Assembly: GCF_013408565.1 (NCBI RefSeq)
Contig: NZ_JACBZX010000001.1
Coordinates: 2,728,001-2,792,000, forward strand
Length of the DNA: 64,000 nucleotides
DNA from: Janibacter alkaliphilus
GTDB lineage: Bacteria; Actinomycetota; Actinomycetes; Actinomycetales; Dermatophilaceae
Direction: 5' to 3'
The stretch's first letter is position 1, and each line of letters opens with the position of its first letter. Both the position numbers and the translations under genes were made by a program. Below the pieces are notes generated by a model. It made no database searches, was not told the DNA's origin, and saw only the letters and a program-made list of their open reading frames with translations. Shown piece after piece: positions 6,831 to 49,085 of the stretch.

Positions 6831-6852
6831 CCCACCTTCGCCCCCAGAGCCT

Positions 6853-6871
6853 TTATCGGGTTACCCGATAA
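6853..6871. repeat. Palindrome TTATCGGGTTACCCGATAA, copy 1
   Basis: Perfect palindromic arms (9 nt each side of one central base), 22 bp after the metH stop. The same palindrome recurs exactly 60 bp later and at 37631-37649. It alternates with a second palindrome (6882-6900). Function unknown; no T-tract follows, so a simple terminator is not obvious. Confidence 0.8.
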
Positions 6872-6881
6872 TCGCTCGCTC

Positions 6882-6900
6882 CCGGGGGAAGCCTTCTCCG
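6882..6900. repeat. GAAG/CTTC palindrome, copy 1
   Basis: Imperfect palindrome built on CCGGGGGAAGCCTTCTCCG. A near-identical copy is at 37601-37619 and a degenerate one at about 6942-6959. In the copies starting at 6882 and 37601 it is followed about 12 bp later by the TTATCGGG palindrome, so the two form one composite repeat unit. Confidence 0.7.
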
Positions 6901-6912
6901 GTGACCGTGCCT

Positions 6913-6931
6913 TTATCGGGTAACCCGATAA
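6913..6931. repeat. Palindrome TTATCGGGTAACCCGATAA, copy 2
   Basis: Second copy, exactly 60 bp after the first, with central A instead of T. The flank CCTTTATCGGG...CGATAATCGCTCG is shared with copy 1. Confidence 0.8.
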
Positions 6932-6984
6932 TCGCTCGGTTGCGCGGGAAGGCTTGTCCGGCGAGCGAGAGGTCCTCGGCAGAT

Positions 6985-30020: not shown

Positions 30021-30092
30021 CCGCAACTGCCTAGGCAGCTGAGTTTGCTCATCTTGCAAGGTGAGCGAAGTCAGCTGCCTAGGCAGTTGCGG
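30021..30092. repeat. Long inverted repeat, arms carry TGCCTAGGCA palindromes
   Basis: 30021-30042 is the exact reverse complement of 30071-30092 (22 bp). After one mismatch the stem goes on with TTTGCTCA (30044-30051) and TGAGCGAA (30062-30069), one T-G pair, and the loop contains the palindrome CTTGCAAG. Total stem is about 31 positions. Each arm has its own GCAACTGCCTAGGCAG palindrome, related to the 48-kb array. No T-tract. Confidence 0.85.
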
Positions 30093-44324: not shown

Positions 44325-44343
44325 GCGCAACTGCCCGGGCAAA
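44325..44343. repeat. Single copy of the GCGCAACTGCCCGGGCAAA repeat
   Basis: Same unit as the array at 48023-48232, here alone between sir and the ABC-F gene. Confidence 0.85.
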
Positions 44344-44395
44344 CTCCACCCCACCTGCGTCGGACCGCAGGAGGGGTCGCGCAGGGCACGCGGGC

Positions 44396-45994
<1,599 letters not shown>

Positions 45995-46987: not shown

Positions 46988-47022
46988 CAGGTGTGATCCG
47001 CCGCGGGCGCACTACGCTGAGC

Positions 47023-47053
47023 GGTCCCTGGACGCCACCGACGGCGTCGGACC
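47023..47053 (+). promoter_or_regulatory. Hairpin in the 5' leader of the zinc metallopeptidase gene
   Basis: GGTCC and GGACC at the ends and GACGCC/GGCGTC inside pair with a 3-nt bulge (CTG) and loop ACCGAC. It lies just after the likely -10 TACGCT (47013-47018) and before the AGGAG at about 47059, so it would sit at the RNA 5' end. Confidence 0.45.
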
Positions 47054-47069
47054 CCTCAGGAGTGTGCCG

Positions 47070-47990
47070 ATGAGCTTCGACGACAACGCCTCGCTGGACA
47101 CCTCGAGGGTGGGCTCCGGCGGCGGGGGCCGCGGGGTGGGCCGGGGACCGGTGATCGCCGGCGGCGGGGTCGTCGGGCTCATCATCACCGTCCTGGTCGT
47201 GCTGCTCGGCGGCGGCGACATGCTCGGCACCGACACCTCCTCGCAGGGCGAGCAGGGCGAGGACCTGGCGCAGCGCTGCCAGACCGGCGCGGACGCCAAC
47301 GCCGACCGGGACTGCCGGGCGGTGGCCACCGAGAACAGCCTCTACGACTACTGGAGCCAGCAGCCGGACCTGGCCGCCGACCTGCGGGCGGCCGGGCAGG
47401 ACTTCCGGGCACCGGCGCAGGTGACGATCTACGAGGGGCAGACCCAGTCCCGGTGCGGCACGGCGAGCAACCAGATCGGTCCCTTCTACTGCCCCCTGGA
47501 CGAGCGGATCTTCCTCGACACCGACTTCTTCGACATCCTGCAGCAGCGGCTGGGCGCGCAGGACGGGGCGCTGGCCGAGGAGTACGTGCTCGCCCACGAG
47601 TACGGTCACCACATCCAGAACCTCTACGGGGTGCTGGAGGAGAGCCAGCGCGACCCGCAGGGCGCGGACTCCGGCGCGGTGCGGGTCGAGCTCATGGCGG
47701 ACTGCTTCGCCGGGATGTGGATCCAGCACGCCGGCAGCACCCAGGACAGCAACGGCAACCGGCTCATGGAGGGCGTCACCGAAGAGGACGTCGCCGACGC
47801 GATGAGCGCGGCGAAGGCGGTCGGCGACGACGTCATCCAGGAGCGCTCCGGCGGCGAGGTGAACCCCGACGGGTGGACCCACGGCTCCGCGCAGGCCCGC
47901 CAGACCTGGCTGGGGATCGGCATGCAGGCGAGCACGCTCGACGACTGCGACACCTTCGCGGTGGCCGACCCCAACAACCCCGGCTCCTGA
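47070..47990 (+). CDS. Neutral zinc metallopeptidase (YpfJ family)
   Basis: 306 aa. Short glycine-rich cytoplasmic start, one membrane helix at about 29-46, then an extracytoplasmic domain with HEYGHH (zinc ligands and catalytic Glu) and the third ligand Glu in ELMADCFAGMW. Four cysteines probably form disulfides. ATG at 47070 after AGGAG. Substrate unknown. Confidence 0.9.
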   Translation: MSFDDNASLDTSRVGSGGGGRGVGRGPVIAGGGVVGLIITVLVVLLGGGDMLGTDTSSQGEQGEDLAQRCQTGADANADRDCRAVATENSLYDYWSQQPDLAADLRAAGQDFRAPAQVTIYEGQTQSRCGTASNQIGPFYCPLDERIFLDTDFFDILQQRLGAQDGALAEEYVLAHEYGHHIQNLYGVLEESQRDPQGADSGAVRVELMADCFAGMWIQHAGSTQDSNGNRLMEGVTEEDVADAMSAAKAVGDDVIQERSGGEVNPDGWTHGSAQARQTWLGIGMQASTLDDCDTFAVADPNNPGS

Positions 47991-48022
47991 CCCGTCCTCC
48001 CCAAAGCCGCTCTGGTCACCCT

Positions 48023-48232
48023 GCGCAACTGCCCGGGCAAATTACGGCTCGTGCGCAACTGCCCGGGCAAATTCGCCCCACCCTGCGCAACTGCCCGGGC
48101 AAATCACGGCTCGTGCGCAACTGCCCGGGCAAATGACACCCACCGTGAGCAACTGCCCGGGCAAATCACCCACCGTGCGCAACTGCCCGGGCAAATTCGG
48201 CCCAGGTCGCGCAACTACCCGGGCAGTTGCGC
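48023..48232. repeat. Array of seven palindromic repeats (GCGCAACTGCCCGGGCAAAT)
   Basis: Copies start at 48023, 48053, 48085, 48115, 48147, 48177 and 48209, steps of 30, 32, 30, 32, 30, 32. The core TGCCCGGGCA is self-complementary. Spacers of 9-12 nt are of two related kinds (ACGGCTCGT and CCCACCGT-like), so the real unit is about 62 bp. Copy 5 has GAGC in place of GCGC; copy 7 is a nearly perfect 24-bp palindrome. Spacers are too short and too similar for CRISPR. Confidence 0.9.
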
Positions 48233-48760
48233 AGGCGAGGGCGGGTCGTCGATCGTCACCCGGACCGCACGGCCCCGGCCCAGGGCGTCCTGCAGCACGG
48301 TCAGGCGCGGGTCGGGCAGGTCCCACAGCTCGCGCCGCGGCAGGTCGGCGAGCGGGAGCAGCGAGGGCGCGAGAAGCACCTGCCCGGCCAGGGCCCTGTC
48401 GCCGCCGACGACGAGGCCGGCCGCCGACCCCGGCGGGCAGATCCGGCCCAGGTGGCGCACCACGGTCTCGACGAGCTCGTCCGCCTGGTTGCCGCGGCGC
48501 CGGGCATACCGCTGCTGGGACCAGCCGCCGGCCGCGGTGCGGGACTGGACGTAGCGGGTGCCGGTCTTGTGCGCGGTCAGCACCTCGCCGCGCGCCAGCC
48601 CGATGGCGTAGCCGCCGCGGCGGACGAGGACGAGCCCCAGCGGGTCGTGGTCGAAGGTCTCGACCGCGACGACCCGCTGGGGCCCGTCGGGGTTGTTGGC
48701 GTCGAAGCGCTCGCGCCAGCGCGGGTAGCGCGCGGGCGCCACCTCGACGACGCGGCTCAC
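48215..48760 (-). CDS. acVLRF1-type peptidyl-tRNA hydrolase
   Basis: 181 aa actinobacterial relative of Vms1/eRF1-like factors that cut nascent chains from peptidyl-tRNA on stalled ribosomes. Catalytic-loop motif GGWSQQRYARRRGNQ is near residues 78-92. GTG at 48760. The last five residues AQLPG and the stop are encoded by the final copy of the palindrome array. Convergent with the metallopeptidase gene; directly downstream of the suf genes on the same strand. Confidence 0.85.
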   Translation of the reverse strand: MSRVVEVAPARYPRWRERFDANNPDGPQRVVAVETFDHDPLGLVLVRRGGYAIGLARGEVLTAHKTGTRYVQSRTAAGGWSQQRYARRRGNQADELVETVVRHLGRICPPGSAAGLVVGGDRALAGQVLLAPSLLPLADLPRRELWDLPDPRLTVLQDALGRGRAVRVTIDDPPSPAQLPG

Positions 48761-48761
48761 C

Positions 48762-49085
48762 TCAGATGTTGAAGCCGAGGGCGCGCAGCTGGTCGCGGCC
48801 GTCGTCGGTGATTTTGTCCGGGCCCCACGGCGGCATCCACACCCAGTTGATCCGGTGGCCGTTGACGAGCCCCTCGAGGCTCTGCCCGACCTGGTCCTCG
48901 ATGACGTCGGTCAGCGGGCAGGCCGCCGAGGTGAGCGTCATGTCGATGACCGCGTGGTTGGTGGGGTCGACGGTGATCCCGTAGACGAGGCCGAGGTCGA
49001 CGACGTTGATCCCGAGCTCGGGGTCGACGACGTCGCGCATGGCCTCCTCGACGTCCGCGACGTTGGTGGCGGTGGTCTCGCTCAT
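48762..49085 (-). CDS. sufT: SufT-like Fe-S assembly factor (MIP18/DUF59)
   Basis: 107 aa; MIP18-family protein that helps Fe-S cluster assembly or insertion. Typical DPELGINVVDLGLVYGI and the conserved cysteine in TSAACPLTD. Last gene of the suf operon; ATG overlaps the sufU stop (ATGA). Confidence 0.9.
   Translation of the reverse strand: MSETTATNVADVEEAMRDVVDPELGINVVDLGLVYGITVDPTNHAVIDMTLTSAACPLTDVIEDQVGQSLEGLVNGHRINWVWMPPWGPDKITDDGRDQLRALGFNI

Follow-up and report, generated by a model that had tools for sequence, protein, structure and literature searches.

Short REP palindromes, present in more than 100 copies, are mostly extragenic, clustered and located near gene 3' ends according to PMC2817692 and PMC3733652, the latter of which also records REPs inside repair genes, recBCD among them. 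Several proteins reportedly bind to REPs and BIMEs (PMC2817692), and CGTC-tagged REPs, including Rickettsia RPE-4 and RPE-6, apparently have no dedicated transposase, are in some cases intragenic and rarely form clusters (PMC3733652, Table 1). What REP-like palindromes are for, and by what route they spread, is a long-standing question. Plasmid iteron arrays are direct repeats in helical phase.

The array described here lies in the genome of Janibacter alkaliphilus, in a window (the whole stretch of DNA analysed, 64,000 nucleotides, G000:C1:2728001-2792000) of a single 3,323,277-bp contig with DNA of 73% GC, and it would represent one locus of a dispersed, REP/BIME-like family of extragenic palindromes. 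With the GTAG-tagged REP/RAYT systems of Enterobacteria, Pseudomonas and Stenotrophomonas the family shares short palindromes of high copy number that are mostly extragenic, near 3' ends and clustered, and just as some GTAG-tagged REPs are found in repair genes, units were detected in the dnaX and recD genes of a congener, G011. Unlike GTAG REP/RAYT, however, the present units carry no GTAG/GTGG tag, no Y1 transposase was found, and they are arranged head to tail at near whole-turn spacing. GTAG, CTAC, GTGG and CCAC were seen at just 6, 8, 2 and 3 of 440 units, respectively, the consensus being without a tag, and a search for RAYT (Y1_Tnp, PF01797) returned none in 29 genomes, including the present one and G011, compared with 5 of 14 controls, E. 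coli included. Regular palindrome spacing is common to the family and BIMEs, but BIME orientation alternates, whereas only 11 of 77 arrays here hold any clearly opposed unit. CGTC-tagged REPs are likewise dispersed palindromes without an apparent dedicated transposase; in the present family, by contrast, clustering is the rule and the CGTC tag is absent (CGTC 4 and GACG 4 of 440 units). The family also differs from plasmid iterons, as its palindrome arrays are dispersed at no fewer than 81 chromosomal places. It thus resembles REPs and BIMEs but departs from them in tag, transposase and orientation. In the openly licensed literature, a full-text search for the string CAACTGCCCGGGCA gave no hit, and nothing on this palindrome family was found in the accessible parts of papers including RepRanger (PMC12306157), PMC3733652 and PMC2817692. 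On balance, the reading slightly favoured is that of a new REP/BIME-like palindrome family, RAYT-less and held in helical register by a putative DNA-binding protein.

Structure of the array and its surroundings

The seven palindromic units occupy window positions 48023..48046, 48053..48076, 48085..48108, 48115..48138, 48147..48170, 48177..48200 and 48209..48232, the site scan assigning the first six to the plus strand and the terminal, nearly full palindrome being without strand. Start-to-start steps are 30, 32, 30, 32, 30 and 32 bp, in full agreement with the alternating 30/32-bp period reported in the earlier note. Unit 1 reads GCGCAACTGCCC to the left and GGGCAAATTACG to the right of its centre at 48034/48035. 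The 20-mer GCGCAACTGCCCGGGCAAAT is exact in five copies (48023, 48053, 48085, 48115 and 48177), the copy at 48147 (unit 5) differs by a single change and starts with GAGC, and the seventh, GCGCAACTACCCGGGCAGTTGCGC, is a near-perfect 24-bp palindrome (GCGCAACTACCC and GGGCAGTTGCGC about its centre) with the core TACCCGGGCA; thus the core TGCCCGGGCA is exact in six of the seven copies. The sevenfold recurrence of one unit, as claimed before, therefore holds in number but not in strict identity. In the window, TGCCCGGGCA occurs seven times (six within the array and one at 44332) versus 0.23 expected, and 100 shuffles gave a maximum of 2, which excludes chance. Spacer 1 resembles spacer 3 and spacer 4 resembles spacer 5, which fits local duplication; growth by a 62-bp dimer, as proposed earlier, fits this array just in part, as a single dimer that simply doubled would not give this pattern.

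The array takes up the space separating two convergently transcribed genes. These are a putative neutral zinc metallopeptidase gene (PF04228, 47064..47990, plus strand), which ends 32 bp before the array, and an acVLRF1 release-factor family gene (PF18859, 48215..48760, minus strand), whose last codons lie inside unit 7, this unit also supplying the stop codon of the ORF. Among six scanned neighbour genes of the array, none was a replication gene, and Rfam models at gathering thresholds matched one tRNA and nothing else in the window. A solitary unit of the same family (44325..44348, plus strand) is located 47 bp from the 3' end of a called ABC-ATPase gene (44396-45994, minus strand).

A dispersed family in helical register

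Genome-wide, the pattern TGCCCGGGCAAAT occurred 176 times (85 + 91), its reversed-pattern control giving 0. Scanning of 75 stretches around the listed sites yielded 474 raw sites, of which 440 were kept because another site lay no more than 36 bp away or because CCCGGGC accompanied a near-perfect half-site, with no kept unit at loci L058 and L075. The 3.32-Mb chromosome accordingly holds at least 440 units in at least 81 clusters, possible false members of this set being the two-unit array 1204256 and some weak units; the largest cluster comprises 17 units, and at least 77 of the 81 comprise two or more. Along the contig the distribution is mildly uneven (KS p=0.034), and no clear pattern in the strand or replichore order of arrays was seen.

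Spacings between adjacent raw sites were 29 (4), 30 (43), 31 (134), 32 (164), 33 (10), 34 (1) and 35 bp (1), the remaining ones being 60-66 bp (4) and three larger. Among kept units, 341 of the 359 spacings under 70 bp measured 30-32 bp, and the modal spacing was 30-33 bp in each of the 77 arrays that hold at least two units. The exact 30/32 alternation is a local feature, spacings of mainly 31 and 32 bp being found genome-wide. The earlier suggestion that copies share one helix face can be extended to whole-turn spacing over these 77 arrays and, among the sites listed, over the spacings of 31-32 and 41-44 bp in G011. Whole-turn spacing of this kind is a prediction of a protein-read array or of a self-spreading palindrome family.

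The unit consensus is conserved from -11 to +5, plus a T at +8 (CGCAACTGCCC and GGGCANNT on the two sides of the centre), and spacer positions mostly carry 0.1-0.5 bit, with 0.9 bit at +11. Non-last units are complementary at +/-1 to 5 (0.92-0.99) and +/-8 (0.96), with low symmetry at +/-6 (0.10), +/-7 (0.36) and +/-9-12 (0.16-0.26), a pattern more reminiscent of a dyad in DNA than of a stem in RNA. Two or fewer right-arm mismatches were counted in 40 of 72 last units versus 21 of 282 inner and 9 of 72 first units, and a fuller palindrome often closes an array. Units run head to tail, 366 with their array, 12 against it and 58 ambiguous. REPs in the general sense are high-copy palindromes of 20-40 bp, and the 440 units, in a 24-bp frame, correspond to this, those other than the last being only partly palindromic.

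Spacer identity was 0.41 between arrays (shuffled, 0.36) and 0.69 within arrays, and in within-array spacer pairs below 50% identity the lengths differed by at most 2 in 180 of 188 cases (0 in 55, 1 in 90 and 2 in 35), which local duplication combined with a length rule explains better than free slippage. Neutral or selfish slippage repeats, whose spacing would be inherited from founder units without any protein, would account for the within-array identity, for the high turnover between species and for the spacer string GGTCTGG, which recurs in G011 and G013. This explanation is nonetheless judged unlikely, as the spacing is kept across arrays despite little spacer similarity, the unit holds its sequence even where the spacer has diverged, and the spacings in G011 (among the sites listed) and in the G013 sample fall into two classes that differ by about one turn, with no value in between. 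Common descent through dimer copying could also mimic phasing if spacers diverged fast.

Location relative to genes and RNA folding

The 81 clusters comprised 38 in co-directional, 31 in convergent and 11 in divergent gene contexts and one within an ORF, to which no Pfam family matched, meaning that 1 of 81 lies inside a called gene (own gene caller) and the family is extragenic and near 3' ends, as REPs are. The 30 window gaps of at least 50 bp included 16 co-directional, 5 convergent and 9 divergent ones, revealing a convergent excess of clusters (31/81 vs 5/30, Fisher p=0.04) against a small background that was defined by our own gene caller and whose 5 convergent gaps include that of the array itself. 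In co-directional gaps, 34 of 38 clusters lie nearer the 3' end of the upstream gene, the median distance being 32 bp from that end and 119 bp from the start of the following gene, and their orientation is independent of transcription (20 same, 18 opposite).

The 3'-end location and the convergent excess would also be expected of bidirectional terminators or mRNA 3'-end stabilisers, in which the units form RNA hairpins and the arrays act as reinforced terminators between convergent genes. As RNA, the whole array of the window folds more stably than shuffled sequence whichever strand is taken (z -6.83 and -7.26), for which reason an RNA role is retained as a rival, and the fuller palindrome at the end of many arrays (40/72 last units) points the same way. 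Most single units do not behave accordingly: non-terminal ones fold on average at -4.0 kcal/mol, just 17 of 354 non-last units fall below -10 kcal/mol compared with 31 of 72 last units, and the pairing arm is lost in non-last units at +/-6, +/-7 and +/-9-12. Furthermore, separate strong hairpins adjoin the arrays at 1664134 and 1946458 (-31.8 and -37.4 kcal/mol; both of the two examined), a fold below -22 was obtained for 59 of the 162 stretches of 60 bp that flank arrays, a scan for terminators (GC-rich hairpin plus T run) found no site in window positions 47000-49000, 11 of the 81 clusters lie between divergent genes, and an RNA function offers no reason for spacing by 10.5-bp turns. A terminator or stabiliser role is therefore considered improbable. 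Pair-specific complementarity of the outer flanks of arrays was rejected as a feature, being not above that of permuted pairs (p=0.78).

The orthologous locus in relatives

The metallopeptidase gene was detected in 12 of 16 genomes of the genus, the present one included, and the array was absent in all seven relatives in which the same two genes adjoin. In four of these (G009, G006, G013 and G003) the aligned ends of the gene pair lie 12-28 bp apart, and in three (G011, G012 and G010) 228-406 bp of other sequence separates them. A half-site scan recovered all seven units at the array's own locus (L154) and none at 13 loci of relatives (L155-L167). Owing to this absence at the orthologous site, the array was most likely gained in the lineage of J. 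alkaliphilus. The intergenic sequences of 228-406 bp at L156, L157 and L159 contain inverted CCGAAGTCC/GACTTCGG-like parts at the array site.

Within the DNA of relatives that was compared, five array loci had an ortholog. For the array at 1946458, the corresponding gap in G014 contains a related pair, and no related pair was found in relatives for those at 1664134, 2157799, 2495268 and 2776023; the one shared position (1/5 loci) suggests that some arrays are old. The array locus L095 and two loci of relatives (L188 and L224) represent one convergent gene pair, which is marked in the two relatives by long hairpins, e.g., ACTCGGGCCCCACGACCG...CGGTCGTGGGGCCCGAGT, and another strong hairpin adjoins the array at L095.

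Distribution and spacing in relatives

With two mismatches allowed, the CCCGGG-core pattern was matched 106 times in the present genome and 121 times in G011, and at most twice in each of the other 184 genomes of the family, and an exact 13-mer was present in 2 of 58 genomes, the present one and G011 (one copy). With three mismatches, the other 14 congeners gave 1-18 matches versus 0-6 in reversed controls, the highest being G014 (18 vs 0). A genus-wide conserved site is thereby rejected, the CCCGGG-core form exceeding two copies in just 2 of 186 family genomes, and the conserved docking or segregation site envisaged in the earlier note is not supported, given this distribution together with the absence of the array in 7/7 relatives. 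The refutation that the note itself had named, absence or random spacing in close relatives, was borne out at the orthologous site, yet the repeat spacing in relatives is mostly not random. Regulatory operators, and nucleoid or segregation sites like parS, matS or iterons, would share the dyad-symmetric core and helical phasing, but the units lie at 3' ends rather than promoters, are mildly unevenly distributed along the contig without a visible strand order, are rare or absent in their CCCGGG-core form in all but 2 of 186 family genomes and were not matched by any plasmid, phage or viral sequence of the collections searched, all of which makes such a role highly improbable.

In G011, the arms are GCGCAT..ATGCGC and many units read GCGCATNTNCCCGGGNANATGCGC. 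Among the sites listed (95 centres), spacings were 31 (2), 32 (9), 41 (1), 42 (12), 43 (4) and 44 bp (1), with further ones of 77, 84 and 88 bp and none of 33-40 bp; two rows (C4:45430 and C44:21271) were left out as non-family with no close pair, and one G011 listing covered 100 of 278 rows. Wherever units of a G011 array lie less than 60 bp apart, which among the sites listed applies to 20 arrays, their spacing corresponds to 3 or 4 turns, and spacer identity over 11 arrays was 0.41 versus 0.37 when shuffled.

Since the CCCGGG-core pattern is blind to CCTAGG-core cousins, scanning was extended to 400-kb samples of three congeners, G004, G013 and G014. G013 harbored a CCTAGG/CCTGGG-core cousin, e.g., GCGCAACTGCCTAGGCTCCTGCGC, with spacings of 31 (2), 32 (4) and 42 bp (3) in its sample. 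Strict half-sites (reversed controls in brackets) numbered 16 (1) in G013, 3 (0) in G014 and 0 (0) in G004, and looser ones 19 (4), 8 (10) and 4 (10), respectively. Motif-score pairs were spaced at 31, 32 and 42 bp in G013 and at 42 bp plus one overlap at 12 bp in G014, with none in shuffles, and the G004 sample had no pairs. A 24-bp palindrome test proved too blunt, as it found no tandem pair in these three samples nor in the array-bearing window. G014 pairs at 30-32 and 42 bp are accompanied by others at 40 and 50 bp and argue only weakly for phasing, and G001 and G003 had pairs at 31 and 32 bp. In total, 47 of 49 spacings in relatives (29 of them from G011) fell at 30-33 or 41-44 bp and one at 34-40 bp, a tally that leaves out overlaps of 12 and 20 bp, distances above 200 bp and the 77, 84 and 88 bp of G011. 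Whole helical turns are kept largely irrespective of spacer sequence, the exceptions being the 40 and 50 bp of G014. With two spacing classes (~31.5 and 42 bp) available, a function in DNA could be told apart from one in RNA.

Proposed mechanism

The family is dispersed and located at 3' ends, and its spacing stays close to whole turns even where spacer sequences have little in common. Considering that 3'-end preference, turnover, absence at the orthologous site and in-frame copies are all REP habits, a REP/BIME-like way of working is suggested. A unit of ~20-24 bp (CGCAACTGCCCGGGCANNT) may settle beside gene 3' ends, perhaps mobilised in trans, and would then expand locally by tandem duplication, taking neighbouring bases along; copies would survive just at ~3 helical turns (30-32 bp), or at 4 turns in relatives, where a dimeric protein could contact neighbouring sites on one helix face, possibly in a cooperative manner. 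Such limited survival makes it most likely that a dimeric protein recognises the units in duplex form, and the whole-turn spacing, the dyad-like conservation and the independence of orientation point to a protein reading the duplex from one side. No candidate for this binding protein was found. The host might benefit through chromosome structuring or the docking of gyrase or nucleoid proteins, or might not benefit at all. In a family for which a search for the known REP transposase gave none, whole-turn spacing differences within and between species would provide a sharp test for a protein that sees one helix face.

A more tentative possibility, to which less weight is given than to the REP/BIME-like family favoured above, is an undescribed kind of phased palindrome array in one genus, in which a fast-evolving DNA-binding or transposition protein would place or keep units only at 3 or 4 turns, with the site sequence turning over between species and the geometry conserved. 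If true, the arrays would amount to a DNA ruler spanning the chromosome, in contrast to the RAYT/REP system.

Related palindromes and in-frame units

Further palindromes were also observed in the window. At 30021..30092, without strand assignment, two related CCTAGG-core palindromes, a cousin arrangement, form an inverted pair with 36-nt arms that are 92% complementary; this REPIN-like pair, CCGCAACTGCCTAGGCAG...CTGCCTAGGCAGTTGCGG, is followed by two exact 18-bp repeats, GCAGTTGCGGCTTGAAGT. At 6849-6967, a different palindrome, GCCTTTATCGGGTTACCCGATAATCGC, is present in two copies with 60-bp spacing.

Outside the genus, G121 has one unit, apparently between two gene ends. An 18-mer search of genome contigs hit 16 stretches from unrelated taxa, once in each, where ~8 were expected by chance under equal base frequencies, and no match was found in the viral contigs or the plasmid and phage collections searched. 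In the G013 samples (L204-L218), all 16 strict half-sites are on the plus strand of their contig. The G011 dnaX gene (L148:721-2931, minus strand) contains four in-frame units with linker repeats such as APAHSPGEVRDS, and the G011 recD gene (L141:1244-3016, plus strand) contains three in-frame units at 42-bp steps.
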